Source of the DNA: Patiria pectinifera
Taxonomy: Eukaryota > Echinodermata > Asteroidea > Valvatida > Asterinidae
Direction of reading: 5' to 3'
Length of the DNA: 64,000 nucleotides
NCBI GenBank assembly: GCA_029964075.1
Contig: CM057142.1
Coordinates: 30,506,392 to 30,570,391, forward strand
Below the pieces are notes generated by a model, which saw only the letters and a list, made by a program, of their open reading frames with translations, did no database searches and had not been told where the DNA came from. Position 1 is the stretch's first letter. The number at the start of each line of letters is the position of its first letter. A program made the translations under genes and the position numbers. This document shows positions 16,101-59,942 of this stretch, piece by piece.

Positions 16101-19100
16101 AATGGTATAAAAATAATGGCGGTACGTGTTTCCGCGGCGACTCTAGAGCCTCGTAAAAAAATGTCGCAAACTTGTTCTTACAGTGTGTACTTGATAAGAA
16201 ACTGAGATCAATTCTCAATATAGTTGGCGATTGCATCTTAACATTGACTTTATGGCAGTATTTAGGCAGCTCTTGCATAGAATTATTACTTATAAAATTA
16301 CTTTTGATCTCCACCCCTTTAAATTGAATTGTACTTTCATTTAATTTACATTGTAATAGTTGAAGGGAATACCAGGGAATATTTGTGTAATTATTATGTA
16401 CTGGTACTGAATGTAGAATTTTTTATACAGGTAGAGCGAAATATACAGTATTGAATGTGTGAGTGTTTAAACAAACGTGTACGTACTTCACATGGAAATT
16501 GAAAAGTAGCGAGAAAAGTATAGAGAAAAAAAGCCAATCACTTTTATGGCCCATTAAGAAGGAATCACGTTGGATGTGAATTAAAACAACAACACACATG
16601 TATGTACTCTGAGAGCAAAAATAATTAGGGCAGCCACAAAGGCATAGAGATGTAAGTAGTTATATATTGCAAATGAAAAGATTAGTCTTACTGATGCCAC
16701 ACTGGCCTTGACATTTATGAATGAAAAATTGTAGCTTTCATTTAGTAAAAGCGTCAGGCTTCAGTGGGTGTGGCCATCAATGCAACCTATTGAAAGAAAA
16801 CTGATGTGTTTCAAAGAAATGTATTTTAAAGCTATCGATTCACTGTACTGTAGGCTTCATTGTTATTTTTGGTTTCATATTTTGTTTATATAGATTGGAA
16901 TCACTTATTGGCTGTTTTTCTGGCCTGGTTTATTTTGGCATTAATTACATTTGTTTCATAGTGACAAATGCACACATGAACATACACACAATCAAAATCT
17001 GCTTTTAAAATTACAAAATGTATAAGACATGTACCGGTACATGTATTTATAAATTAGGAGTTTAACTAGACTTATTGATCGCAAATTTTTTTTTTTCCAC
17101 CACAAGTGACTGGATGATATTTGGGAACCATGTTTTCACGCATAAAATCACACTGGAAATAATTGGCTGTTCACATACCAGCATCTTGTATGCACAACCC
17201 TTGAAGGTTGATGTTTGACATTGTTTGAAGGTGACTATTGCTAAGGACGTGTCAGTCGGAATATTTGCTCCACTTTTCAATACAAAAGGTTGAAAAGGTC
17301 AAAAAAGAAACGGCAAACTTTCAACCCTCATTTTTTTTTAACCTTGACTCCCTAGTGTCTTTTACTAAGTACTGGACCAAGTCCGCCAAAATCCATCACT
17401 GACCCTGCTTCACATAATGCTTCAGGACCAAATCCGCTGAAATCCACCACAAGACCACCACTACTATAGGTGGATTTTGATGGACTTGGTACTCATGGCT
17501 TGCCTACCAAAATCCCCAAAATGGGGGAATGGATTTTGATGGATTTGGGAAGGTTAGGGTCAGTGTAGTTTTGGAAAGTGATTAATACTGAAAGTTGACA
17601 AAACTTTGGTTCAAGTGAGAATATTTAGAACATTTCAAGGGTTCTGAATTCTGAAATCAGGAATGAGTGTGGTGTGTATTTTCTTACCAAAATTTAAAAA
17701 AAAAAGGCCAATGCATGATTTCAATATTGGAAGGACTTTTGTGGACTTGCTCACTGGTACACATAGACATGCTTCGGGTACGTACAGAGTTTTCCTGACT
17801 TCACTTAGCGACAACAGAGCAAAATTCATTTTGTGACCTTTTGAGTAAACAAATTGCCAAACTCAGATAACAGTGACAAAGTACAAAAAGAGAACAAAAC
17901 TACTATCCTGTCGTCGCTGCAATATTTCTGATTCCAAAAAGGTATCTAAATATTTCTTATCAACGTGACGGAATCCAGTATCAGTATTCACGCTGCTACA
18001 TGTACTATTCTGTCAATGAAATTGGACAAAAAGTGTGTGTATTCAGCTGCTAGAAAATACCATTCGCTTTCATATCTCTCTAAAAATCACTACTTGCCCA
18101 AACCTCCCCACAGATATTTTCCCTGCCGTATTTCAATGAGTTATTGATCATGCTGCGCGTTTCAAAGTCTCTGTGTACACTTTGTTTTTGGACAAGCAGA
18201 TTGTATCGCTTGACTGAGCCCAGCAAAACTCCTTCGGAATGCCCTCTGAGGAGAATGCTTTAATAATACAGGAAATGACAAAGAAGGGAGGGATCGAGTA
18301 AAGCTGCAAACTTGTACATAAGAAACGTGGGAACTCTCTTATTACAATGTAGGTGGACCTTCAGGTTCCATTCTGCACTTTTAACCCCATTTAACCCTAA
18401 CCTCTTGGGTATATTTACCAGAAAGTATCCTGAATCTGCGAAAATCCATCAATTTTGCCATGCACAAAAAATTGGTGGCCAGTGAGTCCATCAGAATCCA
18501 CCAGTTAGGTGGGAGTAAATCTGTTGAGATCCTGAATCCGCCAAAGTCCCCCAACTGCTCAATATGGAGGTGTCCTGAATCCATCAGAATCCTGCAGTTC
18601 CACTAGGCTTATAATCCTGAATCCATCAAAATCCCCCAGTTTGTGTAATATGTAGGTATCCTGAATCCGCCAAAATCCCCCGAAACGGGTGTGAATTTTG
18701 ATGGATTCAAGTACATTAGGGTTAAAGGAAAACCTCCAATTTAATAGAACACATTGAATTAAACATTCAAAAAAAGTTTATCTTTCATTCCATAATGTTA
18801 AGCAGCCGACGGACTGTAAGTAAAAGCAAATCCCACATTTTGCCATAGACTCATTAAGCGAACCAAATTAGAAGCCATATCGCTATTCTAATGTGGAACC
18901 AAGTCTAAGTCTGCGTACATGTCACACAAAGTGGAGATTTGCGCACATGTTGGTAATCCTCTTGGTCAAAAGAACATTGAGTGCATGCATACCACTGTGT
19001 GCGAGTGTGTCAGTATAATGAGACACTAGTGTAGCAAGAAAGTTTTCATGGGTAGGGGTGTTTTACCCCTCCCCAATCCCCACTGTAATGGCGGTAGTAG

Positions 19101-22100
19101 CGAAAACGAAGACCCCTAAAACAAAGACCCCTAAAATGAAGACCCCTAAAACAAAGACCCCTAAAACAAAGACCCCTAAAACGAAGATCCCTAAAACGAA
19201 GACCCCTAAAACGAAGACCCCTAAAACGAAGACCCCTAAAACGAAGACCCCTAAACGAAGATCCCTAAAACAAAGACCCCTAAAACGAACACCCCTAAAA
19301 CAAAGACCCCTAAAACGAAAACGGGTCTTCGTTTTTGAGTGGGTCTTCGTTTTCGAGTGGGTCTTTGTTTTCGAGTGGGTCCTCTGTCTTTGGTCTTCGT
19401 TTTAGGGGTTTTCGTTTTCGATACTATCGTGTAATGGCTGGTGGCAGAATGTGCCCACGTGCATGCACAGTATAGGTACAGGTACTAGCTCAGTCACATA
19501 ACTACTGCATGTACTGAATACACAGTTGAGTTGTTCTTGTATGGTGCTGTACAGTGAAGGGCAGTGTCATGGAACCCGACTTATAATATAATTTGCATGC
19601 AGTGGGTCCGACCTTGAAAAAGGCCCCTGCTTTGGAAAGTTCCATTTTATTTGTAGGTGCAACATATGTTTAGACAAGATTTTTCATTTGCATAGCAGAG
19701 TGCAGTAGGATTTCATATGTACAGTACATGTACCGGTGTAGCATGAATTTAGGCTTTATGAAATACGGACTCATTGGTGGTATTGCGCATGCTCATGCAT
19801 AGATAATTAGGAAAGGGACCGGTCACGTGAGAGGGTTTAACCAATAAAAGGGAAAAAGAGTCCGATTTTTATTCGAGTCTGATTTTCATATGACACCGGT
19901 ACTACCAGCACATTTTTTCCATGTTATTTGTCAGAATGACACTTAATACAATGAGTTATTTAGCATTATTCAAATATTTATTTGATGAAATACTAATGAT
20001 TTACTAATGATTTTCTAACTTTCAGACGCTGAATATCTTTAATAAAAGATGCAATTGGAATTAATTTTCAAAGGGAATTAATGTTATTTTTAATTAATGA
20101 GGGAAATTAATTGATTCCAAATTGGACACAGATGCAAGCAAGTGCTCCATTAGTGCAAACAAAATAGCAATGAATATGATAGCTTCGACAACTTGTTTCA
20201 AGTCCAGCCAGTGAATAGTGACCCAGGACCTTAATTTCTCTGAACAGCCCTGGACGTTGACTATCCTATGACAAGCTACAAATGTAGCTCCTGATTTGAA
20301 TGATTAGCATTGCATGGCTAATGGAAGTTCCAAATGGCTTCTGATCTCTCAACCATAGAGCTATAGCCTAGGGTATTACATGTATATATACTGCTGTATT
20401 CTGGAGACTGATATCCATTTCAGTATCTTCGGTCAGGAAGGAAGTCATTATAATTATGGTCATTAAAGATGCATTCGCAGAATTCTCCATTGACTTCTGT
20501 GATTTTTTGTTTAGATTTTCATATATGATGGTCAGTTGTTATGAAAAAAAATTCACATATTTATATGTTTTCCTATTTGTTAAATTTTTTTACTGCACAA
20601 GTTAAAAGATAACAAAAAAAGTATTTAGGTCCTTTAAAAATATTTTGTAGTAGTCCGTGGGACGAGGCCTTTTTTTCGCTTGCCACGCAGTCTGGTTCGC
20701 CGAATTTTATAAAACTTCTCAGACATGTAGATTATGGTGTACCATATCGAAAAAACTTTGTTCCCCGATCCACAGTTTGTTTGAGAATGAGAAAATCTGG
20801 GATAAAAACGCTGACAATTCTACTTATTTCGCAGAGTTTCATGTACATGTACATGTACATGAACCTACATTGTACTTGTAGGGAGAAACTTATTCTAAAC
20901 AAGTCGGGTGGTACAGGTAATTTAAAAAAAAAAAAAAATGATTTACTCTTTTTTTCCCATTAAGCTTAGTTCCAACAAAAGAGCATTTTGGGGCGTTCCA
21001 CTGACGCTTAAAACCACGCATACACTCCACGAAGTATATACATGATGCATGTTCTTTATATCAAATGCAGTCCTACATGTACATGTTTCATGTAATTATG
21101 GGTTTTTATTGCCTGCCTCAGACAGTACACGCATGACTGGCCAAGCCAAGCGGCCAACTATTCATCCTAAAACTTACACGTGATAAGAGTTAACTTGCAA
21201 GTCTGGGTACAGCAAAATAGCTGGTATGACTATATATAAATTATCCCTCTGAAAAATGGAGATACTTGTAGAATGGAAAACTCCGTGGTTCAGCATAGCC
21301 AGAGGTTTTTTTGGGTTGCCTGGCTGTCATAAATTTTAACCCAGAATTTTTGTTCGGTCACGTGGCCGTCACAAAATAAAAAAAGCAGACAGTATTTGGC
21401 ATTATTGGACAATTCACTCTTTTCACACTCCGCCATTGGGCATGCACAGCCTCGATCTGACAACTTTACACAATGAAAATAACCGGTTCAGTGATCTGAA
21501 CCCCGACACGGGAATCACTGAACCGGCTGTATTTATTGTGTAAAGTTGCCAGATCGAGGCTCTGCATGCCCCTGGCGGAAGTGTGAAAAGAGCGAATAGA
21601 TTGGACTGTGTGAACATTGCGGTATATTTGTGAACCAACACGAATAGAAATACCTTATATTGCTTTCCAATGGAAAAGCAGTAGTGTCGTTAGGGCAGCT
21701 CCAATTCATTGGTCTCTGAACTGGAAGTTGTGAACATAAAAAGCGTAAAGCAGCTTCTCTTTCGGCTTTAACTTTGCCCTTATCCTTCAAAATCCATCGG
21801 GAGATTTTGAAGGATTGCAGAGCCCAGCAACTCTCAAAGACTTCACATGGGGTTTGATGGTGGTTTTTTGCACAGTGCTTGATTTTTGAGGATTTTTGAG
21901 GATTCAGGAAATTTTCAGCAGAAAATGGGTCATTGTATTAATTTGGGGTCCAATTTTTTTTCCTGTACCTGTTACGGGGCCGTATCATAAGTCTGACGCC
22001 TCCATAAGTCCGGAATTTCAGACTCTATGGCGTCGGACTTATGAGGCTAAGTCCGACAACGGAAACAAGGCGTTTAAATTTGTTGGACTTACGAGGCGTT

Positions 22101-25100
22101 GGAGCTATGAGGTGTCGGACCTATTAGGCGTCAGACTAATGGGCCTTTATTTGGTTAGGGGATGGGATTTTGTCGGACTTAAGAGGCGTCGGACCTATGA
22201 GGCGTCGGACTTATGAGCGGACCCCCCTGTTACATGTACATCTGAAAAATCCTGAAGCACTATCTAATGCAGTCGTCCTCAAGACTGATTATGAATAGCA
22301 AACCTACATGTACCTGACAAATCAAAAATTGTTTGAATTCATTCTTAATGATACTTGAATGGCAAAATACGAAGTACATGTAGCAAAGTATCAGGGACAG
22401 GAAAAATGGCACACTACATGTATATGGACACTAAATTCAAATGCCTGTATATGTACAATGTAGGGTTATACATGTACATTGTACCTTGTACAAAGATGCA
22501 CGGATCCCGTTCTATATCCTACTATCTCTGTGGATATTTCTGGATTGTTGTGTGTGTCCTTTTTCCCAGTATTGATCACTCATGTGTCTGAAATACAAAT
22601 CAATAGCTTCAATTGATCTTTTGGCATCTTTCCCCCAACCATCCGTGACCATTGATAAAAATCAAATCGACTGTCGGCTAAGTTACGTTACAGACTCCAT
22701 GACATGAACATTTATGTGTACACATGTATGTACTTGCACACAATGTAATTGTAGGCTGGGCAGATTTTACAAGATTGCTTGCTTTTTTTTTCAAGACAAT
22801 ATCAATGGAAAATGTTTGTTGGGTGTAATTTGATATATATTTTTTTAAATTTTTTTTTCAACGCATGATTTGCTTAGAATAACATGTGCTGAAACACTAG
22901 AAGTTCTGATATTTTGTTACACAGTAAACAATTTATATGTGCATTCTGTGCTAGACTATAAAAACAAATAGAGCTGATATTATTTCACAACTTGTGAACA
23001 GCATTTTTAAAAATTTTTAAACATACATTGGATAAAAAAAAAATTGTAGAAGTTAATTTGTGGAAACTCCTCATGGCATTAAAAAAAATCATATTTGTAT
23101 TTTATTTTAAATTTATGCGTACTAAGAGAACAGTTGGGGAATGTCATTTAGTCTTAAAGCTCTGAAAGTTTGTTGCTTATTGTTTTGTTCGTACAGTTTT
23201 ATTCAGTCATATTTTCATGCCATTGTTGCGTTGAACATTTTCAAGAAAAAGTTGTGGAAGCATTTGAATTTATTTCAAAAGCATTTGAATATATTAAAAA
23301 ACAACGTAGTAGAATTTTTTAAAATAGATGAAAAAAAAAAAGTTGGACAATTATTAGTTATCCATTACAGCCTTTGAGGTGGAAGTTCTAATGTATTGAT
23401 TCATAGCAAACATTTCAGGAATATAAAAGGTAAAAAAAATCAGCCTGAGAAATGGAAAGAAGAACCTTTTAAGTACAACACACGCAATGGGGGAAAATCA
23501 CGGTGGGTTGCATGTACTCTTTCACGTGCTGCAGGAAAATGTTGTCCTAGGTCGGCGCGGCGCAGGCTGCTGCGCCGGGCGATGTATTAACTTTTACGGC
23601 CGGGGACCGGACGGGGCAGCCGGCAGCAATTCCCGGTGATTATTTCTCATCATCAATTTCCACATTTGTTTGTGAGAGTATCGATTGTAAATGATTTGAT
23701 ACAACTTTTGTGGCCCTTTTTATAGCTTCTGTAGTGTAAATGGAACTAGTTCAAAGCATTTTGGCGAGAATTTGGAGGCCTTACAAAATTGAAACCGCTG
23801 CCGTCGGTGCGGCTTATACGCCGGTGCGGCTTATACGCCGACTTCAAATCTTAATTTGCAGATTTTTGCGTGCTGCGGCTTATACGCCGCGCGGCTTATA
23901 TTCCGAAAATTACGGTAGGTTGTGTAAATTGTGAAAACCTGAACCACTGGGATTTGAGCCACAACCGCCTAGTTAAATGATGCGGAAGCTTTTGCAATAT
24001 TAACCTGATCTCACTCCTGTGTCTCATTCAATTGACAAGTGAAGTGTGGAGGAGAGTATCAAATCTCGTGTCATTAGATGTGACAGGCTGGTTGATCTCT
24101 GGGCTGAAAAAAAGGCCAGCATCGTGTCAAGTGCATACAAGCGATGTGTTAGCAAACTGATATTAAAGTCACACTGTGCGTGGTCCAGACAGCCCTGTTG
24201 TGTTGAAACCTAGTAAGGCCAAAAGAAAAAAGGCTCCGGTTTCTGGTCTGCCCGCGCGTCGCCGTAGCCATGCGCGTCGGCAAAATTAAACAGTTTTTTT
24301 TTTTTTCAATGTGAGATGATGTTTCAAAACCGTCAAACTCTAGTGGTTTGACTGGAATCCTGCTGCTGCACAATTTTAACGTGTTTTTAGATGGGGTTAC
24401 GGTCGAGTATAAGCTTTACAAAATGTATGTGGCCTCTCTGGGCCCCGATACATTTTGCCCCAAATTTAGTCGGGCACCATTTGCAATCATCAGCCGACAT
24501 TTGACCAAAAAAAAACAAAACGCGTCGCCGCACCACTTTTGGGGCAAGCTCCATACCAGAAACTGAAGACTTTTTTTTGTTGGCCTAAGCAGACAAGACG
24601 GATCTAGTGTGGACATGGTGGATGAAATTACAGTTTTGTCTGTTTCGACTTGAGTGTTTACCTTATAAAAAAACCTGGACACGTACATTAAATGGCTTCA
24701 TGATACAATATATTTGGTTTTTGGAAAGTAACTTTGTCACAACACGTTATATGCATCTTCTTTCTTATTGTTACATTGGATACATGTTGTTGATTGATGT
24801 GGGGAGTTCTTTGGGAATGGGGCCGTCAAGTTTTCAAATGTGTAACATAGAATTATTTGTAATTACCAGCAACACAACTAATTGTATTGACATCTTAAAA
24901 ATAAAACGAAGATTTGTCAGAACATGAACAGAAGTATGACTTAAATTTCAGGTTTACATCCAATACAAAATGCTTGACTCAAATACTGTAGATATATTTT
25001 AAATTGAGCAGTTTTTTGTTTCGGTAACTTCTGCTCCCTTTAAACATACCCTTCTACATTTTTGTACTTTTTACATATTATAGGCAATTCCAGCATTATG

Positions 25101-28100
25101 TGATGTGCCTGACAGGGCTTTTAAGAGCTCAGTGAATAAACCTGAAAATGGGAATTTTCAAATCTTATACACGTATCCATCGTTTAGTGATGGCCAAAGG
25201 AGATTACAGACTGAATCATTTATTGGATATCATGCTTGACTGGCTCTGTCACAGACATTACACTTCCTTTCATAACGTTGGAATCGCTCATACATGTGTA
25301 CACAATTACTTGTTCCTAGTTGTGAGGACATACATGTACATGTACATTGTACACCTGTCTGTACGAGGTATTTGTGGGGACCAGAAAACGCTGTGGGGAT
25401 AGCAGAAAGTTCCCATAACTCGGTCCTAATTTGCCTAACAATAACAAACTTCCCCATAACACGATGTAGGCCTGCACATGTGTATCAGGTGTCGGTCTAC
25501 AACTGTGCCATAATTGCTGCTAAAAATTAACGTATGAATTCACTGAAGAACCTATTTCTTCTTTTGTATCTGACACAGATGAAGGATGGGTGCGCATTTA
25601 CATGAGGGGGCGCCCGATCACCATGTTCATGCCCACGGAAGCGGGAGACTTCTCCGTCAAGGCAAAGCAAGAGCCCCCAGCTGAAAAGCTCAAGCTGGAA
25701 TGGGTGTATCCTTTTCATCCCCATGGCTTTCAAGCCAGACAGGGGGACATTGCGATCGCGTATTCCTTCTGTGTGTCCGTGTGTCTCTGCGCGTTGGTTT
25801 ATGGTGTAAATCGAGGACACACACGCGCAGCATCATCGGTGAATCGAGGACAAGAAAATCAAGGACGACCTCGGTTAGAAAACGTGTACAAAACCAATGA
25901 GAGCTGTTGTGAAAAAGTTACAAACAAAGGAAAAGGGAAGAGTCCTGAATTTGGTCCTGAATGGTTGAAAGTCCTTCACACTGGGCCCGATTCAGATTGA
26001 AAATTTGCTTCTGTGGACAGGGTACAAAACCATGGGTCTGACACAGAAGTCAGAGGCACAAGAAAGCAGTACATTCATCAAAGGGTATTCAGGCATAAGA
26101 AGAAACCTGTAACCCAGACTACAGTCCACCTTAATATTAGCACAGACCCAAACTTTCTCAAACCAAGAAGTAAGACAACATCAGTGTTGTAGTCCAGTAC
26201 TTTTTTCCGAGTACTGAGTACTGCCGAGTACTTACGTAGCCGAGTACGAGTAGGAGTACGAGTACTTGTACCTCCGAGTACAAGAACAGGTCTCCGAGTA
26301 CGAGTACTTATACTTCCGAGTACGAGTACGAGTACTTGTATTCCGAATACGGCCATACGGCAAATGGTTGATTGTGCGTAATAATTGGCCCAGGCCCAGT
26401 CAGACCGATGTACAGACCCAATCACAGCTAGCTGTTGTGTTTGTCTGGACGTGCACAGAGGGAAATCAAGAAACTTCTATTTCTCCACAAGCCAATCAAC
26501 CATTTCAAACTGAAAGTATCGATAAAATAAGGCCATGGTGTATAAAGTCAAGCTATACCATTTCTCCCGAGTACTGCTATTCCAGTACGAGTACTTTGAT
26601 GATCAAGTACAATTTTGACATGTCGAGTACGAGTACTTTGCTGCCCGAGTACGAGTACCGTCATTTCGAGTACGAGTACTTTGACATTCGAGTACGAGTA
26701 CGAGTACTCCAAAAAAGTACTCGAGTAGTACTCGAGTACGAGTACCGAGTACGAGTACTACAACACTGGATAACATACCAATGATGACTGTGTGATTTCA
26801 TGTAACCAAGGCACCACTTAGTATAAGCTTGTTTAAGTGTAGACTACTGTTTCAACTTGTGTTGCTAGTTTGACAAGTCCAATCGTAAGTGCTCTAATAG
26901 AACACTCGATAAGCAAATTTCCGAGGCAAGATTTTCTTTAACCTGCTGGAAACAGTTACGGTTACAGAGGGAAAGACTGCCGCACCAACCTGCACATTTT
27001 GCCAACAGGTGATATCGTCTACTTCATGGCAGCCGTGGTCATCCTGCACAACGTGCAAGAGAACACCCAGAGACACTACATGGGCCACAATGACGACGTC
27101 AAGTGGTAAGTTGGACAGAAGCAGATTGCAGCAATATTGCGTGAGTGGATCGTGTTTGCTCGTACCACCTCATCGAAGGTCTTTGGTGAGCTCTTGGTTT
27201 TTGAGCTCTCGATGGCTTATTCTGTTTACTCGGCAATCAGGGTCAACCCACGGGCACAGAATGTACGTACATTGGTAATGACAAGTGACCTACATTACAT
27301 GTATCCACCCTGCTTCGCGACGGCTCCTTTCCTTCACAGGAGTTGGTGAAAGTCGAAAGCACACTGTATCCCTCATACACTGGCTCGCATGAGTAGGCCA
27401 AACAGCACCATATCTGTGTGGAGTGCTGTGGCCTCTTGGTTGAGGGCATTGGATTCATGGTCTGCGGGTAGAGCTGCAGGTTGTGGGTTCGAGTCCAGCC
27501 GGGGGTCGTGGTGCGTGTGTTCTTGTGCAAGCCACTTTGTCACTCATTGCTTCTCTCCACCCAGGAGTAATTGGGTACCTGTGAGGGCAGAGATGGTTAT
27601 TGTGGTTGATTTTAGCTGCTTTGCACCTAACAGGCAGCATCGAGCTGTATACTCCCCAGGGAGCTGAGATGGTAGGAATGTTTCATGGGCCCAATGAGCA
27701 GGGGTAATAATGATGTAGTGCATTGAGCACCAGTCCTGGTGGATACGTGTTCTTTATAAATACTCACTATTATTGTTATTATTATTATGTTAGATCCCAC
27801 AAACCAGTATTTGATTTTTTAAACTTGACAGTTAGTCCTCAGAAATGAGCATGTGACTTACAATAGCAGTTGACCATATGCAGCCATGCCGCAAAGAAAT
27901 CTCCATGGAATTAAGTAAAATTAACCGTGTCTCTAAAAAGAGATCTTAAAATAGTATACTTAAAAAACGAAACTTACATAAATACAGCCTAGTACCTGTA
28001 TTATGCCAGCCTTACACTATTCTGTTTGTTGTTTTTTGTTTACAGTATTGCCATTCATCCCAACACTGTGACCATAGCATCTGGACAGGTGGCCGGCCAT

Positions 28101-31100: not shown

Positions 31101-34100
31101 TGATCCTCGAGCAAAACTCTAACACCGCGTTCCCACTTGAATTGAAAAAAGGTGGATCAAGATCCGGCATTTTGGTGTGATCGTTATCTTACCGCAACGA
31201 AACCGCAAGTCGCGTTTCCACTTATGCTTGATCCACCTTTTCGTCCGGAAATGTTGGGTCCGAAAGGTCACTGAGTTCGGAATTACGCGCGCTCTGTGGG
31301 AGTGCCATTGTTGCATGGTTGCATGCTAGGCCAGGATGGGTCATTTTCAAACAGCACTATCAGCATTCACCGACAAAAATTACGCGAATTCACCAACATA
31401 AATCACGGATCCGTAGAGGATCCGTGCGTGCATAAATTAACAGGTGAAATCCAACAGAGCCCCTCATTGTGTGACATCACGGCAGAAACCAATGCATCGA
31501 TAAGGGGTTCCCTGGTTCTGAAGCTTCTCATTGGTTAGAAACGGTCACATGATGTACTACGACATCATTTTCCAATTTTCTATAATCAATACTTCAGATT
31601 TGTCACCTCCGTACGTACCGCGTTATCGGCACTATTCTCATCGCATACTCGTAAGGTTTTCCATGATTCTGTGCCAAAGTGAAGTCTTTTGGTGAGTGCG
31701 GACTCAGAGTCATTTGTGGATGGAAAAATAAGTAAAATTTCAGGAATGAAAAAGGTTTAGTAATGGACGAACACGCAACAAAAATAAGGCCTATATAGTG
31801 TAGTTTTAGGATACCACGTGCGCTTTTGCATGCGCGGTGCTAGCCCGTAGTTCAGCGGTTGTTTATTGTGCATGTTGTATACGCTGGAAATGTTCACATG
31901 AGCTACACGCCTGAAAACGTGTTTCTTCGTTCATGAGACCGCAACATTTTCGCGCCACTCGTACACCGGGCGGATGTTAACAGGTCAAATTGCCGGATCA
32001 GATCCACCTTTTACGCTCCCATCTGATCGTGATCCGGCAATTGCCGGATCTGATCCACCAATTGGGGGATCTCTATCCTGGTCCAGAGGTGGATCAGAAA
32101 AGGTGGATCTGATCCTGATCCACCTTATAACGGTTAGCGTTCCCACTACACACAATTGCCGGATCTGATCCACCAATTGGGGGATCTGATCCGGCAATTT
32201 GGCAAAAGGTGGATCAGATCCCCCAATTGGTGGATCAAGTGGGAACGGGGTCTAAGTTGCTTACAAAAACAATTTGTCTTGCAATTGTGACATTGTTTGC
32301 TCAAGATTAAACAATAAGCAGTCAGCTGTTGTGTAAATAAATTGATTTGTGAGCCCCAAAAGTGTTTATTATACTGGTATGGGGGATACTATGGGCATCA
32401 TTGAAGTAGGGGTGTGGCAGAATCACTTGGCTGTACGCCTGACGATCACACATGTGTAGCCACACATGCATGTGTAATTTTAAGCTGAAGCATAGTAATT
32501 TGGGAACATCTTAAAAACAAACACAAGGAGAAAAAAGAAAGACATTTGTGAGGCGTCCTAGCAAAATGAGTTGGAGCTGGGCTGGAAAGAGAATAAACTT
32601 CTCCTACAATAAGCCAGTTCGGTATTTCAGTGACCCGAGGACATTCCATTGACAAGTTATGGCTGTTTAAAGTTTGCATTTTTCGAATATGCCCACAAAG
32701 TAAAATATTGAGGAAAAGGCCTTTAAAGTTTTGACTGTGTTAAAGTCGTGAAAATGAAAGACGCCAACTTTTTTTCACTTTTGACTGTTACTGTTCTATG
32801 CTTTGATCTTTCAAAAAAATATGCTTTGTGGACTACAGAAGGTACGTCTTTATTGTGAAGCAGTTGCTTGTTTATACCAGCATGCAGCCCATCCACTGTT
32901 TACCTGTCATGCATTATTCATTAACGCACCCCTGCATGGGCCTATTGAAAATTGTGGAGTATAGACGTTGGGTTTTCTGTAATATTTTTTTTTATTGATT
33001 TCTATCGTATATTGCTGAAAAAGAAAATTTCACTTTTTTTATACTGTTTCTTTAAATTGTATGTCATAAACATATATCAAAGGTTACAAATTAAATCTAA
33101 ATATGGAAGAAAAAAATCACCCCCGTTCTGTTTTTGGTTTTCTTCTGTTTTGTCCACTTAGGCCTGTGCCCAGTTCCGTCTTGTTTTCTCACATTTGTCA
33201 CATATGTAAACAGACTGTTCAATATAAGAGGAAGTGTGTTTTAGGAGATTTTCTATGACACATTCGTGACAAGACAGGCACTGTGTAACAGATATCAGAA
33301 CAGCTTGACCCAGTTGACTGCAGATTAATTTTGAACAGATGGATAATCACATTATGTAGATCATGAAACAGGTGAAATTGCTTTTTATGGATGGTTGATT
33401 GGTTCTTTGCAGCCTCATGTGCGTATCTGGGACTCCGTCAACCTGAACACGTTGCATGTCCTGGGACTTGGATTCTTTGACAGAGCTGTGTGCTGTGTAG
33501 GATTCTCCAAATGTGTAAGTGTCTTCTTTTTCTCCATCTATCTCAGTTGTTATTTTAGAAGAACTGAGGGTTGCAGGCCAGTAAATCGGTCCGGAATTGC
33601 CTACGCCGGCCAAATCACGATTTGCATGCCCTCAAATTCTCCGGTATTAGAGCATTTTGAAGGCAGTGAACTTGATGATTTGTAAAAAAAAACAAAAAGA
33701 AGGTTGGAAGCCGTGCAGAGGACTGCAAGCTCGTATTTCTGTGAAATGTGGATGAAATTAGGCCCTAAAATGGCTCTATTTTGCTATGGTGGGTAGGCGT
33801 CCATTTTCAAAATGGCGATGGGCTTCAGGACTGCTTTTAGGGGTGATCATCTTCGGATGAAGTTTTCTCCCAAAAGTCTTTGGTTAACCCCCAGATAATT
33901 GAACAAAAAAATGACAGATGATGAAATAAGCTGCAATTTGATGCATGTCCTGAACACCTCAGAGAGTCCTGAGTACTTTTAATATTTTTTCGGAAGTGCG
34001 CATACTCTCCGCTAAGGTCTATGGCAGTCGATTTACTGGTCTGGACCCTAAGGGGAGAGAATGTAAAATTTCACCATAGCAAAAACATGACACGAGATTT

Positions 34101-43100: not shown

Positions 43101-46100
43101 TCCATCTTACGAACCCATGGTTATAATTCTCAGTAGAATTTGGCGAGTCATTAATAGGCATATAGGATCATTTGCATTTATCCTAAAAGTAAACTTTCCA
43201 ACTATTATCAAAAAGATTATTTGGATTAAAGATCGTACTGATACTGAACACCCCGTGAAATTATTCCGTCTTGCTTGCTGTCATTTAGAAGAAACCAAGA
43301 AATGTAGGTATCAGTCAATTGACTGATTTTTTTTTAAATAAAGAGTTATATAGACGAAATTGTGTTTCCGGATAAAAAGTTTGTGCGTGTTTTTTTTTCA
43401 GTGTTTGCTCAAAAAATATCTAATATCCACTGGGCTGAAAGTTCAACAGGTTAGGTTTTGAAAATTTCTTCTTTGGATTTTGATTATTGAAAACAAACAA
43501 ATGCATGAAAGGCAAATTATCCTATACGCCTTTACAGAAGGGGCATGCACACATGTAGTAGCTTTTTTGCGTGTGGCGGACACAACGGGTAGGGGGCTAC
43601 TTGGATTTGTAAAAGCTATTTTACCCTAAAAACCTAATTTAATTTATATCACACTGACGCAAAATGCCATCTTATAAAAGCTATTGTATTGGCCCAAATA
43701 TCCCAATAGGACATGATACTTTTTTTCAATGCTGCCATACTAAGGATGGAACATGATGTTACATGATCAAATTGACAGTACATGTACATGGATATATTTA
43801 CAATTGATTTAATACTGAACATGAACTAAATGGCAACATCTAGGTCCTGGGTGAAGCAACAGCTTGTGTTCCCCAGCCTATGGACAGACAGACAAGTGAC
43901 AGACATACATGAACAGACAGAGCACATACACCGGTGTAAGACAGTAATCAAGGCTGTTATTACCCCTATTACATTTAGTATGCAATTAATAGTTGCCTTT
44001 TTAGTTTTCTAGCCAAAAAAAAAATGAGAGTGGGTGATGATTTCATAAGAGTCATCCAGACTAATCCAATATAGAGTGCCACGTTGGACAACACTATTTT
44101 TGGACAATGAAGTTCGATTATAATTAACATAAAGATTTGTCCTTGCAGCCCTGCGGGTATTATAGGAAGGTTTGATGTAAAATAGTGGAGAGAGACGGAT
44201 AGTAAAGGGAACACAATGGCCTACATGTACATTGCGTTTTAGAAATAAACCCAGCGTTGCATTGAATTTCAGTACATATCCACACACACCCAAATCATTG
44301 TCTTGATATTGCTGCCCTCATGTAGGATCCCTGCCAGTCGGCCTGCTTCCATCCCAACGGTGGAGTGGTCGCCCTTGGTATGAAGACAGGACGTTGGATG
44401 GTGCTAGATGCCCAGAACCAGGATCTGGTCACCGTCCACACTGATGGTAACGAGCAGCATGACATCGTCAGGTACTCACCAGGTAAGGTGATCAAATATT
44501 GCTCACCAAATCTGTTTGCTCAGCAAAAGTTAGCGGAGTACCATTCGCAAGCAATATACATCTCATGGCATTTGGGTTGGTGACCTGACATGGGTAAGCA
44601 AAGATATTCCCAGCTTACCAATCTTATTGTGTGTAGCAGCTACAGGGCTATGAGGGTAGTAAATGCCAGTGTTGTACTCTAGTCCATCACAAGTCTTTTG
44701 CCTTTGCCTTTCCAAGGCTATGTTCATCCAATGTCGGATGCAGCCCTCCTCGTGATCCGTCCAACGGGCGTGCAACATTTCCTCAGTTGTGCTGATTTCC
44801 TCATTTTTTCCTTCTCATGAATCCCATTATAAATTGAAAAACACTGTACAAGTTGCATTCCTGTTCCAAGTTGACCTGTCTTCTGCTTGTCTCGCTCATG
44901 TCGTACCCATGAAAGCTGTGAGGTCATCTTGCCATCTTCTTTTTTTGCTTGCCTCTTCTCCTTTTCTCTGTCCTTGGTTGCCATTCTGTTAATCTTTTTG
45001 TTCATCTGTCCGGTATTTCTGCGAGCTGAGCCAAGTGCCCAGCCCATCTCCACTTTGACTCTTTGATCTTTATGTTGGCATCCTTAACTCAAAGTTCAAA
45101 GTTCATTCAAATTGTGACTCATTCAAAAGTGAGTCTGGGTGACTTGTGACGGACTCAACTACAACACCGGTAAATGTACAATACTGGTTGCATGACCTTA
45201 CGTGATACTTACCCAAGTAACCAGCTAAGTGGTTCGGTTACTTAGGCCATGCTCGAGTAAGCGCGAGAAGTCACTTGAGAGTTAAATCGAATGCAGTCGT
45301 GCTTGCACGAGTAAGCGCGGGGTAATTGAACACGCTATATGTAGGAGAAATTTGGAGGTCAGCTGAATCTAAAGTATGGTGCTTTCATTGGTCAGTAATT
45401 CTTCTAAGCAATTGTTTTCCCTCTTAATAAATTTACTCAAGCTACCCTACTTTTTAGCAAATCATGGTTTTTTTTCTTCTTTATTCCACTTCCAGATGGG
45501 AACTATCTGGCAGTTGCCTCCCATGACAACTACATCTACATCTACGCAGTGACTGAGGAAGGACGCAAGTACAACAAAGTTGGCAGATGCTCAGTAAGTG
45601 CTCCATTAATTATAAGTATAAAGTTCGTAACATCCAGGGACAACTGTTATGGGTCTGCTGCCTGTAAGCAGAGAATCTTTGTAACTGGAGTAGAAAATGC
45701 TGCACTAATGGTAGCCATATTTTACAGGTTTGTGCCATTTGGATAGTCTGTAGTTACAGATTTCTGTGGTTACAGTGTTTGCATAGAATGTCTGCACCTA
45801 GTATTCAGGCATGAGACTTTTTGAATCTGAGGTAAAGACATTGTCAAAATAGTATAAAATGCATCTCTCAGACATTTCATCCGATTTCCAAAGTTGTCTC
45901 TAAATTGACAATATCATCCCTATAGCACAGAATGGCGATTGTAAGACACATAATTTTGAGTAATGAAATTGGTCGCTGAAGAGAGTAGTCTGCGGATAGT
46001 GTTTGGGAGTAGGTCTTTTTTGTTGTGCTAGATCCAGAGAAGCAGCCGATTGTCCTCAGAATAGCTGACTGACTGACTGACTGACCAACCTGCTGATTGA

Positions 46101-52388: not shown

Positions 52389-52394
52389 AATAAA
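52389..52394 (+). promoter_or_regulatory. Candidate polyadenylation signal AATAAA
   Basis: First canonical AATAAA after the EML stop codon, in ATGGTCAAAATAAAATACAT. It is about 3.8 kb from the stop; earlier ATTAAA variants could be used instead. Confidence 0.35.
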
Positions 52395-52440
52395 ATACAT
52401 AATACAATGACCAATTCCTGGCTCCACTTTCTGTATTGAA

Positions 52441-52685
52441 GACACATAGGATGATTTGCATTTTAAAAGCTTACTTGGATTAAAGATCGTACTGGTACTA
52501 AACGCCCCGCTTTGAAACAATTCCGTCTGGTTTGCTGTCATTCAGAAGAAATGAAGAAATGTAGGTGGTTTCCAACGCTCAGCGAATCGACTGATATTTG
52601 GAAATAAAGAGTTATATAGACGAATCGTGTTTCATTATCAAAAGGTGCACGTTTTTCACTGTTTCAATTCGATTTGAAAAGCTAT
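52441..52685. mobile_element. TTAA-type MITE, family B copy 3 (truncated)
   Basis: ACATAGGATGATTTGCAT end, then TTGGATTAAAGATCGTACTG, TTTGCTGTCATTCAGAAG and AAATAAAGAGTTATATAGAC as in 43155-43531; the right end is missing. Confidence 0.75.
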
Positions 52686-53027
52686 TTTTCGGGGTGCCAT
52701 ACCCAAAAAGCACGTATACACCAACTTAAGTCCACTAACGTATTGTAAACATTTTCTGTACATGTATTAGCGGTGTCAGCACAAAACGGTGGTCATAAGC
52801 GCGCATACCTGTGGCTAACAGAGCCGTGATATCAAAATGTTGGGATTGACTTGCAACGGTTGTGGGTGAAATAACAATATGTACTTAGATGTACTACATG
52901 TATATCATGTGTAGGTGTCTGATTGGGCCCATGTGGTTGATTGTAATCACGCTAATAAGCATAATTAATTTTTGCATTTACGGAAAGTCCGTGAAATTAC
53001 GGCGAAAATACGGAATATTTTACTTTA

Positions 53028-53386
53028 GGCCAAAAAAAAAGAGTCTCCGGTTTCTGGTATGCGCGCACGTCGCCGTAGCAATGCGCATCGGCAAAATGAA
53101 AAAGGTTTTTTTTTCAATGAAAGATAATGTTTCAAACCGCCAAACTCACTGGTTTGACTGGAATCCTGCTGCTGCACAATTTTAACGTGTTTTTAGATGG
53201 GGTTATGATCGAGAAGCTTTATGTGGCCTCTCTGGACTCCCATATATTTGCACGAAGTTTAGTCGGGCACCATTTGCAGTCATCAGCCGACATTTGAAGC
53301 AAAAAAAAACAGGTAAAAAAAAAAAAAGCCGCGTCGCCGCACCACTTATTGGGCAAGCTCCATACCAGGAGACTTTTTTTTTGGCC
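53028..53386. mobile_element. Harbinger-like MITE, TTA duplication, copy 2
   Basis: TTA at 53025-53027 and 53387-53389. Ends GGCCAAAAAAAAAGAGTCTC and, inverted, GGCCAAAAAAAAAGTCTCCT. The body matches 24217-24585. The flanks (TTTACGGAAAGTCCGTGAAA; TTACGGAGTCCGTAAATTTA) are themselves palindromic, so it may have landed in another element. Confidence 0.85.
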
Positions 53387-53604
53387 TTACGGAGTCCGTA
53401 AATTTACGGGCATTTTTAACAGTGTATGTTTAGCATACGTATATATAGGTTTACGACTAATGAGGCTGCCGTTTGCATTATATTTTCCAAACAAATGAAA
53501 ACAGTTGACAGTCGTTATTGCATGGAGCCAAAACATATGCGCACAGCAATAATCCAGGTTTCTCGGCCTATTATTCAGACAAATTGTTTTTGAGGAGAAT
53601 TCTA

Positions 53605-53690
53605 AGGAAGCCTGATGGTCGAGTGGTAAGATTCGTCGTCCACGAATCACGGAGTCCGGGATCGAATCCCGTCGGTGTCCGTTTTGCTTT
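53605..53690 (+). mobile_element. tRNA-like SINE head
   Basis: TGGTCGAGTGGTAAGATTCG (A box) ... CGGGATCGAATCCCG (B box) with an ATTCG/CGAAT stem and loop TCGTCCA. The acceptor stem does not pair well, so it is a SINE head rather than a working tRNA-Asp gene. Confidence 0.6.
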
Positions 53691-53749
53691 TCACAGCACG
53701 CGTGCTATTTAGTCATTATAAGATGTTTAATTTCCCGCCGTAGAATACC

Positions 53750-54050
53750 AACAGTACCTTAGCTTAATCGGTAAGCACTGCTGCTGGTACTGTCCACGAG
53801 TTCCAGGTTGGTACCTTCGTACAGTTTCAGGGCATGTGGTCCACTCGGAAGATCAGGGCTTAGGGTGCCGCCCTGTTCCTCCCTTAGCTCGTTGCTTTTA
53901 CATGGTGACTGGCCCTCCGGGGTTACATGGATGGACAGGGAAGGAAGTGTATATTGGCCGGGAACGCCGAGATCCCAGAAGAGGCCTTAGGGATTAGCTT
54001 TGGCATTGTTATGGCTCAGACCGATCCCTGAATGCTTGGCTAGCACATAA
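53750..54050. repeat. GC-richer dispersed-repeat-like block
   Basis: ACCTTAGCTTAATCGGTAAG resembles a degenerate A box, followed by a distinctly GC-richer 250 bp (GGGCTTAGGGTGCCGCCCTG, TACATGGATGGACAGGGAAG). No ORF worth naming. Possibly the body of the SINE at 53605. Confidence 0.35.
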
Positions 54051-54734
54051 CTTTTTGATTTTTTTTATCCTATATTTTTTTTTAAACTGTTGTTTAATAA
54101 GTTTGATGTTTACATCTGCTCAGTAGGCCTACGGTAGTATTAAAAACAAAACAAAGTAAAAAATCAATGCATTTTTAATAATTGACTATAATCAAAACGA
54201 AGTTTTGTTCGATCAATATGACTATGCCATTATTAATGTCGCGATTTCCAATTGAATTAGAGAACGCAGTATGCAATATTGTACCTTGCAAAAATAAAAA
54301 TGTACATCGTAATATGATTATTACATGTTTCAAAATAATATTTCTTTAATTGTGAACATTCCCCAAATATATAGTAATTTGCAAAATAGGAAATTGCAAG
54401 AAAATAAAGTGCCTCACCCTTAAAACTGGAAATCTAAAAAAAAAAAAATAAAGTCAAGTGGAACACCTGAATTTTGAAAATTCCATAACATGGGACTTTT
54501 ACAGACTTGCCTTTGACTCATGTCAGTGACAGACAGTCACGGATCCAGCTGGCTTGGGGGGGGGGGGGGGTTCGAATCCGTCTCCTGCTCTGACACAATA
54601 AAGTAAAGATGGCTCATCCGTTACAGTTGCCTTTTGCCACCATGAAAAACTTCCGGTGATGAATATAAATGACCCGCAAAAAGCATGGAACCAAACAGGC
54701 GGAAGCGGCGGAACCATGAATGTTGGCAGGGAGA

Positions 54735-56385
54735 GGGGAGTTCATCAGCAAAAAAATTCTGCAATGTAGACAAGTTTTTTCTCCAATATTTGGAACATTT
54801 GGGCAAAAACCATCGATTTTGTGACAAATAAATTAACATTTATCACTGATTTTACCCCGTATTTTCATCCATATTATCTTTTGAAAAGCAAATGTTATCA
54901 CAATTGGAATTGGAATGTGTTGTAGGGTCCCTTAGGCATCTTTCTAGAAAGTTACAAAAAAAATCGTTTTTGTTGAGTTCATCAGCAAAAACATTCTGCA
55001 ATGTAGACAAGTTTTTTCTCCAACATTTGGAAGATTTGGGCAAAAACCATCGATTTTGTGAGAAATAAATTAACATTTTTCACTGATTTTACCCCATTTT
55101 TTCCATCCATATTTTCTTTTGAAAAGCAAATCTTGTCACAATTGGAGTTGGAATGTGTTCTAAGGTCCCTTAGGCATCTTTCTAGCAAGTTTCAAGGAAT
55201 TTAATTTTTTGGTGAAAATTGTAAAAAAATGCAAGGGGTTAGCCTTACTTTTTTTTTATCCAATTTTGGCCAAAAATTGACTTTTCTGCAAACAATGCAG
55301 AATTTCCTTTCGAAGTCAGAGGAGCACTCATCAATACGCAAACACCAAATATTTGGAAGATTTGGGCAAAAACCATGGATTTTGTGAGAAATAAATTAAC
55401 ATTTTTGACTAATTTTATCCCATATTTTCATTCACATTTTCTTTTGAAAAGCAAATATTATCACAATTGGAGTTGGAATGTGTTGTAGGGTCCTTTAGGC
55501 ATCTTTCTAGCAAGTTAAAAAGAATTTCGTATTTTGGTGTAAATTGGAAAAAATGCAAGGGGTTAGCCTTACTTTTTTATCCAAATTGGGCCAAAAATTG
55601 ACTTTTCTGCAAGCAATGCGAAATTTCCTTTCGAAGTCAGAGGAGCATTTATCAATACTCAAACACCCAATATTTGGAAGATTTGGGCAAAACCATGGAT
55701 TTTGTGAGAAATAAATTAACATTTTCACTAATTTTACCCCATATTTTCATCCATATTTTCTTTTGAAAAGCAAATATTGTCACAATTGGAATTGGAATGT
55801 GTTGTAGAGTCCCTTAGGCATCTTTCTAGCAAGTTTCAAGGAATTTAATTTTTTGGTGAAAATTGAAAAAAAAATGCAAGGGGTTAGCCTTACTTTTTTA
55901 TCCAAATTTGGCCAAAAATGACTTTTCTCCAAACAATGCAGAACTTCCTTTCGAAGTCAGAGGAGCACCAGTCAATACTCAAACACCCAATATTTGGAAG
56001 ATTTTGGCAAAAACCATTGATTTTGTGAGAAATGAACGAAAATTTTCCACTGATTTTACCCCTATTTTCATCCATATTTCCTTTTGAAAAGCAAATCTTG
56101 TCACAATTGGAGTTGGAATGTGTTCTAAGGTCCTTAAGGCATCTTTCTAGCAAGTTTCAAGGAATTTCATTTTTTGGACAAAATTGAAAAAAAATGCAAG
56201 GGGTTAGCCTTATTTTTTTTATCCAAATTTGGCCAAAAAAAGACTTTTCTGCAAACAATGCAGAACTTCCCTTCGAAGTCAGAAGAGCACTAATCAATAC
56301 TCAAACACCCAATATTTGGAAGATTAGGGAAAAGGCATGGATTTTGTGAGAAATAAATTAACATTTTTCACTAATTTTACCTCAT
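54735..56385. repeat. Satellite-like tandem array, ~320-bp unit
   Basis: The marker GGCATCTTTCTAG(C/A)AA occurs at about 54935, 55173, 55498, 55817 and 56138 (spacings 238, 325, 319, 321), so the unit is about 320 bp with one shortened copy. Shared blocks: GGGCAAAAACCATCGATTTT, AGAAATAAATTAACATTTTT, CTTTCGAAGTCAGAGGAGCA, GCAAGGGGTTAGCCTTACTT. Units differ by a few percent. Confidence 0.92.
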
Positions 56386-56389
56386 ATGG

Positions 56390-59300
56390 TACATGAACAT
56401 ATACTTTACTAGTTTCATTCAAGAACAAACAGAATTATGAGGAATGCATAAATAGCATACTCTTGTTGGTTTAATTTTATTTTTTCATCGGTAAATCAAG
56501 CTATTGAACTAGCCATAAATGCAATCCTTCAAAACTATCTACTCTTCCGAAGCAAAAACTGCCATAAAACGTCAAAGTCAAAGTCAAATGCACAGTCAAA
56601 TATCTCAGTGTACCACATCAACTTGGCTCTGGTCACAATTCAAAGATAACACACTATCATAACCAACATTTTCAAACTGGAATATATTTCTTTCAACAGC
56701 AACCGTATTTTCGTATGTATTTTTAATGTTTTAGGCACGCACAATCACACGGCATTTCACTGTATATTTAGATATATATGGGACAATAAAATAAAATAAT
56801 ACAATATAAATAAAAATAAACCAAGTCTAATCAAACACATTTTTCATATTTACCTTTCAGCATAAAACACTTTCAAAGGTTCCCCTTAAAGTACATTCGA
56901 AATATATGTAGTTTCTTTTTAACAGTTGATAAAAATCTTTTTCATATAATAAAATATATAAATAAATACTTTTTGAAGGGGTGAATTTGAAATGTTCATA
57001 AAGGTGATAATTACAATTTTGTCAGAATATAGTTCATGCAGCACCTTAATCATAGGTGATTATAAAGTATCTACAAATCAACCATCAGTTGTAATTATAT
57101 AAATAATTTTATATAAATAATATATAAATAATAATATAAACAAAAAAAATCAAAATATGAGATCTGGGTTATACATGGGTACACATAATGGTTTGGAACC
57201 ATTAATTCAAGTACATGTATATGCAGTATGCAAGGTACAATGTGCATCTATATTAATATCAGCAAGTGTTAAATGTGATACATTTCTTGTACATCTTACT
57301 TTGCATAGTAAGCAAATATATTTGTACATACTTTAAAGTGGTGATGACGAGTTCAATGACAAAGGCTTAGGCCTATGCTATGAGTGCAATCTACAACGTA
57401 AGAGTAACTCTAAGCGACCAGCTAATGATAAGAATAAGTATCAGAAATTATTTACATTGGCAGCAGCAGCAACTAACATGAACAAACTTTCGTGAACATC
57501 TACAACTACAACTTGTATGTTAACTACAATGATTATAGTAGGCGTACAGTCTCAGTTTTACAGCAACAAAGTTATTAGTAGTCTCTACAAACTGTGTTAT
57601 GCTTCGTCCCTTGATTCAATGGGACCTCGATCACTTAACACACATCACACAGACTTCATAGCTTTTGCAGCACTACATATCGTTTGCCTTGAACATTTGA
57701 GTATTAATGACAAACATCAAATATGTCTAACAGCATAAATTGTAGGCCCTATGTGCTGTATACATGTATTCACATTTAATATGAGACCATTAAATGACAA
57801 ATAATAGATAAGAGATTGTTATTGACATCATAGGCGATTGCCGGCGACTATGATATATACAATGTACATGTATATCTGAAAAGGAGATGTATCATAATCA
57901 TCATCACCAAATATACACAGTCGGTCACAAACTATTTCTATGCGGTTTCTCTTTCACAATAGACATTGTATAAACACAAACACAAGCTTGCCTTTCCGAA
58001 AACCAAACTTGTCTTTCCGAATATTAATGATTGCCAAACATTCCCCCGAAATTTCAGGGTTTTTATAAGAGTAGGAAGAATTAGAATTTTTAAAAACATA
58101 TGTGGTTACATAGTAAACATACACCCATATTCTTACTGATCATAAATCCTGTGTAAGGTTGCTTTACCTGTTTCCATTTTGTATAAACGTTAAATACTGA
58201 GCAATACTAATAACAGTATTGTCTTGTGTATTACACTTAGTTGACATGGTGAAAATCATTAATGAAAGAAACAAAAAGACAAATGTCAAAACAAAGATGG
58301 CAGAACATTCCATAATTAACCATTTAAAAAACCTTCAAACCTTATAGGAAATGTTTCTATTTTTTCAATGACCATAATTTTTTTTTTTAAATATGTGTTT
58401 TGACTGTAGTTATCAAATCACCTGTAGTTATCCAAACAGTTACTCAATCATTTCTATTACATTATATATTTTTGTAAAAGCCCAAAACAAACCAAAATGT
58501 AAAAGTTTACTCCAAGCTATGTACATATTTTTTTGTACTTATATCTTACTTTCTATTTTAATGAATATCAAATTTGAACCAAAAAGATATTTTAATCCCA
58601 AAACAGTTTTCAAATCAATCATTTCTATTAAAAGAAAAACACAAACAAATCAAACTGTAAAACTTGACTCTGAGCTCCAGCCCTACTTGTTAGCGTCAGA
58701 CTCCTATCACTAAAAGCTCCATGGAGCTACCAAAACTTGGAACTTGGACAAAAAAATCCAGAATTAAAAGCTGAAATTCAAAAGGACATGGCTCTATTAT
58801 TACCAGGAAAAAGTCTGCCTGATATCAATTTTTCAAACAATACATGTATGATTCAGTCTAATATAGCATACACACAAAAACTACACACTGAATTCATGAC
58901 ACAAGTTACTACTTACTACCGTCACTCATGATCTTTATGTATATTAAACCAAGCTTTTTTGTTTCAATATTGGGTTTCGCCTTCCCAAACAATACTTTAT
59001 AATTCGTGTTTCTTTTATGCTCCCCAAGAGCATGCAAGCAAAATTCACATGCCCGCTTGGGTGGGACTCAAACCCACAACCTCATGATCCATAACAGTCC
59101 TGAATCCTCCAATTGTAATACGATTTTGCATACCCTTAGGGAGTTAGGGTATAAGCTTTTGCTAGTGGCTTGTATAAGCTATTGCTAGTGGCTAGAGTAG
59201 TTGCATCTCTCCAAACATAAAATTCCATCATGTCAGAAATTATGTATATTTACACAATTTGGCTACTTACAAAAAAAATATGTTTCACGTACATTAACTT

Positions 59301-59390
59301 GATACAAGACAGCTAAGAATGAATTTCTTGTAGTCGAGTTCACCATTAGGCCATGACAAGTAGTCATTTCATTAGTATTAATCAAAGGGG
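56390..59390. other. AT-rich DNA, no gene recognised
   Basis: No exon-like, conserved or splice-bounded frame. Contains TA-rich runs (57100-57140) and scattered ACATGT motifs. Around 59055-59160 are a reversed SINE B-box fragment (GGGTGGGACTCAAACCCAC) and a TCCTGAATCCTCC...GGAGTTAGGGT fragment of the TTAACCCTAAC element family. Confidence 0.6.
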
Positions 59391-59934
59391 CAGTTTTGCT
59401 GGTCTCGGTCTCGGGAGCTGTGGTCTCGGTCTCGGTCCCCTTGGTCTCGATATTTTGGCCGGGCTCGAGTCGAGACCGGCAATATGTAGCATTTACAGCT
59501 CGATCGATTACTTTGTGTTCACTTCGTTCAGTACTGTTGATAGTTAAAATATTTTCTACCCGTAGATCATGTTGTCAGCCTTGTTAGTGAATCTTTATAA
59601 TATCGTGGTTGGTTCGGACGGCCTGTGTATTACTTCTTGCTCAAGCAAGGTGTCATATGCCAGTTTGTCAACACTGCCTAAAATTTTGTCTGTAATCTTC
59701 GTGAAAAAAAAGATTTACAACTTACAAAAATAAAATGTGTTTTGTATTTGTATTGTATTTAGATTATTGTTATTTGTTATCTGCGGTCTTGGTCTCGGTC
59801 TCGGTCTCAGACCATATCGGTCTCGGTCTCGGTCCGCCAGGGAGGGGCTGGTCTTGGTCTCGGTCTCGGTCTCGAAACTTCAGGTCTCGGTCTTGGTCTC
59901 GGTCTCGGACTATACCGTCTCGACTACAACACTG
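59391..59934. mobile_element. hAT-like element with GGTCTC arrays
   Basis: Left CAGTTTTGCTGGTCTCGG, right CCGTCTCGACTACAACACTG, whose last 12 bases equal the end of 26182-26768. (GGTCTC)n lies at 59398-59455 and 59785-59925. Flanks CAAAGGGG and CAGGGGGG could be a diverged 8-bp duplication. The middle 300 bp is unique. Confidence 0.65.
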
Positions 59935-59942
59935 CAGGGGGG

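Follow-up and report, generated by a model that had tools for sequence, protein, structure and literature searches.

Related hAT transposons of the sea star Patiria pectinifera with a common tip and dense, family-specific arrays of putative transposase-binding words

A 64,000-nucleotide stretch of the Patiria pectinifera genome (assembly GCA_029964075.1, contig CM057142.1, positions 30,506,392 to 30,570,391 of the forward strand; hereafter the window) contains five short transposable elements, E1 to E5, which an earlier note had brought together under a single architecture. We observe that the five elements are real and that they fall instead into three different groups: E3 with E4, E5, and E1 with E2. 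E3 and E4 are quite probably internally deleted members, E4 being truncated as well, of one related group of hAT cut-and-paste transposons with dense, family-specific putative binding sites for the transposase. The best reading overall is that of a known hAT end architecture in an unusually clear, dense and family-specific form. The main interest of the system lies in related hAT families with one tip, different dense words and different BED fingers, rather than in the short elements themselves.

E3 (26182..26768, + strand) is a non-autonomous element of the GAGTAC family with its T-end on the left and its G-end on the right, both bearing an exact CAGTGTTGTAG tip. Its flanks, GACAACAT (26174-26181) and GATAACAT (26769-26776), match at seven of eight positions. 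The T-end array (26209..26335, +) has 12 GAGTAC words on the + strand and none on the - strand, and the G-end array (26569..26758, +) has 15 and three; the 12-bp palindrome GTACTCGAGTAC (26728..26739), made of two opposed words, starts 30 bp from the G-end. This gives 27 forward and three reverse words, whereas in 1,000 dinucleotide shuffles the word occurred 1.0 times on average and at most 5 times. A search of the 613.5-Mb assembly (1,020 contigs), which was also the basis of the other genome searches, returned mostly near-whole-element alignments among the best 40 of 1,402 candidates (the window's own included), the other copies at 83-92%. The arrays are present in all 12 copies examined (the window copy and the local duplicate L031 included), with 23-30 forward words each, and the 8-bp duplication is exact in five of them and has one mismatch in another five. 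At one locus (L015, C1:7526550-7531150) two near-identical GAGTAC elements lie 3.7 kb apart with a common CTTTCTAT duplication; the pair L015/L015b is probably a tandem duplication of the locus and a single insertion event.

E4 (59393..59934, + strand, left limit approximate) is a left-truncated copy of the GAGACC family, with an exact CAGTGTTGTAG at 59924-59934 and 16 GGTCTC words in one direction against one in the other (shuffles: mean 0.66, maximum 4). Position 59391, formerly taken for the element's end, does not hold as such, since the left boundary aligns about 55-75 bp inside the fuller relatives L013 and L014; this truncation accounts for the lack of an 8-bp target duplication in the flanks of E4. 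Two further GAGACC relatives are A045, with one exact tip, another with one mismatch and flanks that do not match, and A044, with no tip in the sequence examined. When 600-bp stretches of the window were scanned for repeated words, E3 ranked first and E4 second, E1 tied for third place with an ATGTAC-rich stretch at 11501, and E2 was not near the top.

The 11-bp tip is far more abundant than expected from its reversed control: CAGTGTTGTAG occurs exactly 4,500 times genome-wide (2,262+2,238), and the control 318 times (152+166). The first 100 tips of the list lie on contig C1; 23 close pairs were picked by eye among them and 21 of these were fetched in 20 regions; the flanking 8-bp duplications are exact in 13 pairs, have one mismatch in two, two mismatches in two and four or more in four. 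The bodies of these elements repeat CGAG followed by TAC, TCC, ACC or TCA/TCC. A 5.1-kb tip pair with flanks that do not match and another word (L028) was excluded from later counts, as was E5.

Full-length relatives came from a genome search with PF05699, which gave 94 matches with the best 150 of 182 candidates scored; many of the matches lie on contig C7, and nine of 30 loci were extended upstream. Three of these loci (A046, A047 and A048) are copies of a 5.1-kb element with exact 8-bp duplications (ATAATGTT, GTCGCTGC and GAATTAAA), the tips CAGTGTTGGAG and CAGTGTTGTAG and an array of GAGGCC words at either end; the element also has a BED finger and a hAT C-terminal domain. Their arrays of 19+7, 17+6 and 15+5 words are comparable with those of the short elements, so the arrays look inherited by the short copies. 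Given these counts and the presence of arrays in all 12 E3 copies examined, the idea that non-autonomous hAT elements arise repeatedly by growth of their subterminal repeats is not supported. PF02892 and PF05699 both exceed the cut-off in the two array-bearing elements tested, A046 (GAGGCC) and A054 (GAGTCA). Related transposase exons stand beside GAGACC, GAGTCC and GAGTCA arrays in A044, A045, A049 (a GAGTCC copy with a deletion, flanked by an exact duplication) and A054 (a GAGTCA/GAGTCG relative), and the transposase genes of these elements are split into multiple exons. By their 8-bp duplications, PF05699 and PF02892, E3, E4 and the other CAGTGTTGTAG relatives belong to the hAT superfamily, their activity being predicted only. 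The copies A050-A053 on C22 are all flanked by TTACATAT, as would be expected if a single insertion had been duplicated locally.

Behind a tip that is common to these families in exact or near-exact form, each family has its own CGAG-NNN word (TAC, TCC, ACC, GCC, TCA) across roughly the first 100-200 bp of both ends, and the word is a family trait. The variants met among the hAT relatives are GAGTAC (E3), GAGACC (E4), GAGTCC, GAGGCC and GAGTCA. In a census of T-ends (100 listed of 750 genome-wide) the triplets were TCC in 33, ACC in 24, GCC in 18, TAC in 14 and seven others in 11, with the last base of the search pattern selecting some ends; the reversed control gave none. Elements contain 7 to 35 words, and 71 of 169 gaps between adjacent words measure 6 bp, that is, the words stand in tandem. 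Literature matches for the tip CAGTGTTGTAG and for doubled words concerned other subjects only, by title and abstract.

The words are oriented in a way that makes the two ends different. All 29 elements tested, a set that includes several copies per family, keep one majority direction across their two halves, with 572 words following it and 95 against; the two ends differ because this single direction runs through both of them. Arrays had been described as facing opposite ways on the two sides, which is not the case in E3 or E4, where one direction prevails on both. Many of the minority-direction words belong to opposed pairs, GNNCTCGAGNNC. In 39 elements (L017 and A049 excluded) there are 54 such pairs in the G-half and 11 in the T-half, the latter all in GAGTCC elements and starting at least 56 bp from the tip. 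An opposed pair, or palindrome, starts 11-42 bp from the G-end in 26 of the 39, and the outermost 55 bp of the T-end are free of such pairs in every one of the 39. The G-end is the side of the BED exon in A045-A048.

A genome search with a BED query gave 103 matches (best 150 of 170 candidates scored), and 23 BED loci were examined: 16 from this search, six fetched and A054 (L082-L084, L086 and L098 belong to A046-A048, A045 and A044). An array is present at 18 of them, of the GCC (4), TCC (6), ACC (2), TAC (4) or TCA (1) kind, with one mixed (L095, GAGTCA words upstream); that of L101 comprises three words only, and in L093 a TGA word of another repeat outnumbers the array word. We compared each of 18 BEDs with the others, the mixed L095 being dropped and the decayed L018 added, and in 17 cases the closest match sits with the same word; the one finger for which it does not is the single GAGTCA finger. 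At the family level, the suggestion that each motif marks a different parent transposase is thereby supported as an inference, the word going with a different lineage.

The putative recognition helix differs between families. It reads TTSNFTRH in the GCC fingers and in the TCC fingers L085 and L100, TSSAFTRH with ACC, TTSNFNKH with TAC and TSSNFSRH with TCA, and variant TCC helices occur in L087 (TSH), L090 (IRY), L094 (TFSNFTRH) and L101 (TK, then out of line). K stands for R in all four GAGTAC fingers with an open helix, together with A for C at word base 5; A stands for N in both GAGACC fingers, together with the GAGACC word, and also in L099, where the array is not in the sequence examined. 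This stretch coincides with T65, S66, N67 and R70 of the house fly hAT transposase Hermes, the TSNxxR match being by eye; the base contacts of the Hermes BED are given as Q64, T65, S66, N67 and R70 in PMC10368747. A BED profile gave one weak match in the PDB, the ZBED1 BED (2ct5, E 0.091), over the same helix stretch, and a search with a single BED gave no match up to E 1. An AlphaFold model of one BED has a helix at residues 47-58 and a mean predicted local distance difference test score (pLDDT) of 57.6. We infer that the BED finger reads the word, and to this extent the proposal that the arrays are transposase binding sites is supported, as the most likely reading of them.

Two loci, L085 (C13:8821461, -) and L089 (C13:7576109, +), have a lone BED exon between arrays, and tblastn found no catalytic exon there; L085 measures 1,204 bp and is flanked by exact ATAGAAAG duplications, and L089 is without recognisable tips. 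Such lone exons could encode a BED-only competitor. This idea is weakened by the comparison of four GAGTAC copies (L089, L096, L097, L103), in which purifying selection on BED exons between arrays was looked for and no sign of it found, pairs differing by 2-7 non-synonymous and 0-3 synonymous codons. L094 (C14:27286734, +) carries a pair of T-ends separated by some 1,074 bp, both flanked by GACCGTGT and with the BED in between, and looks like a tandem duplication.

These features suggest how the ends might work. The BED finger would bind the family word, and a multimeric transposase might capture the G-end first through its many BEDs, as has been proposed for the left end of Hermes; the captured G-end would then be joined by the T-end by way of the tip that both have in common. 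The word would serve as a family address limiting cross-mobilisation among co-resident families, and short copies could remain mobile because deletion spared their arrays. A bolder extension, which we regard as less likely than not, is that BED finger and word form an address module that can be exchanged. In five or more co-resident families the tip would stay the same or nearly so, finger and word would change in concert, and the families would thereby be kept from mobilising each other. If this were true, the fingers would be a natural mutant series for reading the BED recognition code.

Several observations weigh against the main reading of E3 and E4 given above, as hAT elements with family words read by the finger. 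No opposed pair is found near the G-end in 13 of 39 elements (L011, L016, L018, L019, L020, the truncated E4, A051, A053, A057, L030, L033, L034 and L037), and in three GAGGCC copies the directions in the G-half are near balance (8-7, 7-6, 6-5). At the R position two TCC fingers deviate, L087 (S) and L101 (K, where the frame departs), and both fit the R/K pattern of residue and word poorly; together with the 13 elements lacking a pair they weaken the proposed reading. An array was not found in the sequence examined at five of 23 BED loci (L088, L091, L092, L099, L102), and for GAGTAC only BED exons, and no transposase with catalytic exons, were found in the sequence examined. The sole tip seen in A054 (GAGTCA) differs at two bases. 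A tree of the C-terminal domain (10 pieces) supports one of seven inner branches and needs two changes for the GAGACC rows, so a single origin of GAGACC is not shown. A 21-bp helical phasing of the words was also considered and rejected, the observed value being reached by 3,902 random placements and 4,769 gap permutations out of 5,000 each. Further, once near-copies are set aside, word agreement between a BED and its closest relative drops to 8 of 18 cases, and the link between finger and word may therefore be plain common descent. Under this explanation words are alike within families because they come from an array-bearing ancestor, and word and BED differ by drift and homogenisation, there being no recognition code. 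It draws on the same exceptions at the R position and on the fact that the GCC fingers and the TCC finger of L085 have one helix, TTSNFTRHLQRVH, even though their words differ at base 4; the helix alone is thus not the code, and other residues must matter if a code exists. What speaks against it is that each element holds 7 to 28 majority-direction words with one variant triplet, a concerted change that is hard to obtain by drift without selection or homogenisation. We regard common descent without a code as possible, yet improbable.

The reading of E3 and E4 as hAT elements with family-specific putative binding sites does not extend readily to E1 and E2. E1 (19092..19429, +) is a fold-back element with opposed arrays and the family ends YGGTAGTATCGAAAACGAA, flanked by an exact 8-bp duplication, TGTAATGG (19084-19091 and 19430-19437). 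Its 15-mer array has 14 units on the + strand at the left and five on the - strand at the right, so here the arrays do face opposite ways. E2 (21976..22225, +) is a fold-back element with ends GGGGCCG/CGGACCCC and units of GTCGGACTTATGAGGC, flanked by the exact 8-bp duplication CCTGTTAC (21968-21975 and 22226-22233). The window copy has six units on the + strand and none on the - strand at up to two mismatches, with one inverted unit at the left end, and the opposed arrangement ascribed to it is found in its relatives, where all eight fetched copies have - units at the left and + units mostly at the right. The E1 family search gave 61 candidates and that of E2 1,172, of which 40 were scored in each case. 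E1 partly fits the view, of the kind that the earlier note had named as a refutation, that the arrays are ordinary growth of microsatellites or minisatellites at single loci with no role in transposition: its eight fetched copies, chosen as short ones, are all short fold-backs in which 2-3 units point forward, compared with 14 in the window copy, and the frequent 6-bp tandem spacing of the hAT words is what slippage would produce. At least two further E1 relatives (C3:3928072-3929147 and C13:9639708-9640179) also look long in the search alignments, however, which indicates that array length varies between copies and that expansion is not unique to the window. For E3, arrays in all 12 copies and mostly near-whole-element alignments tell against growth at single loci, as does the occurrence of similar arrays at the two ends of full-length elements from other families, and we consider this explanation very improbable for the arrays as a whole.

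It is likewise unlikely, rather more so than common descent without a code, that E1 and E2 also belong to hAT and work by the same mechanism as E3 and E4. Their 8-bp duplications would agree with it: among eight fetched E1 copies that of L113 is exact, those of L115, L118 and L119 match at 7/8, those of L114 and L120 are poor, and the right end of L116 and L117 was not found; among eight fetched E2 copies the duplication is exact at the best offset in L105, L107 (a duplicate of the window's own locus), L108 and L109 and matches at 7/8 in L111 and L112, L106 and L110 being unscored. Their ends, YGGTAGTATCG and GGGGCCG, do not start with CAG, however, and the arrays of their relatives are opposed, not head-to-tail. 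Judged by their ends, E1 and E2 are not hAT, and we assign them to no superfamily.

E5 (44667..45169, +) is a hAT-like element without an array, so classed by its 8-bp duplication and hAT-type tips. Its 30-nt inverted ends agree at 83%, its flanks GTAAATGC/GTAAATGT match at 7/8, and each of its tips has one mismatch to CAGTGTTGTAG, so that of the three elements thought to share an end E3 does so exactly at both ends and E4 at its right end. The 8-bp or probable 8-bp duplications attributed to all five elements are thus exact in E1 and E2, imperfect in E3 and E5 and absent in E4. A high-copy repeat is nested at element positions ~98-185 of E5 (window ~44764-44851). Among the best 40 of 1,224 candidates there is no other full-length copy; the inner part recurs at six other loci at 79-87%, and most other matches are the nested repeat.

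The block with E1, E2 and E3 (window 19084-26776) is repeated once more on its contig, some 117 kb upstream (G000:C14:30405450-30415863), with the same CCTGTTAC and GACAACAT/GATAACAT flanks, where E1 matches as two pieces 2.2 kb apart. Exon-like coding stretches at window ~25580-27110 and ~44400-45590 look by eye like parts of a gene for an echinoderm microtubule-associated protein-like (EML) protein, in whose introns E3 and E5 would then sit. The window also contains a dense array at 31990-32250 with units AATTGCCGGATC(A/T)GATCCACC in both directions, absent from the earlier note's finding.

BED fingers are widespread, in transposases and in the ZBED and CGGBP regulators, and we know of no recognition code for them. 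A natural series from which to derive such a code is available here in one genome, with at least five families whose tips are identical or nearly so, whose fingers and words both differ, and whose elements each hold 7 to 35 words; the same families allow a test of whether end arrays stop related transposons from mobilising each other.

In plants, the transposases of Ac/Ds and Tag1 recognise repeated subterminal words. About 200 and 100 bp of end are needed by Ac/Ds and Tag1, as cited in PMC10368747. According to PMC8097297, BED-type domains of hAT elements and their domesticated descendants (CGGBP) bind diverse motifs, and for all four hAT-encoded proteins sequences that match the motif with a high score occur subterminally in the protein's own element. 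Those motifs were measured, across species, whereas the words and fingers described here, known from sequence alone, vary among co-resident families of one genome. The coral miniature inverted-repeat elements, as presented in PMC2872659, are not similar to the elements described here. As described in PMC10368747, Tol2 of medaka has a perfect palindrome of two sites right after the left tip and needs 200 and 150 bp of its ends, and, unlike the hAT families here, it has one word (AAGT) with five sites in the first 50 bp of its ends. A close likeness is with Hermes, whose BED finger, in the same source, binds short subterminal repeats. The two Hermes ends contain 17 and 14 AAG(T/C) sites; in the left end two sites make up a quasi-palindrome within bp 11-27, the right end is bound by no BEDs, and the element makes 8-bp duplications. 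The opposed pair near one tip only (26 of 39 elements here) and the 8-bp duplications are common to both systems. Unlike in Hermes as there described, the word of these elements is 6-7 bp long, is repeated up to 35 times per element, stands largely in tandem and in one direction, and differs between related families behind the same or nearly the same tip.

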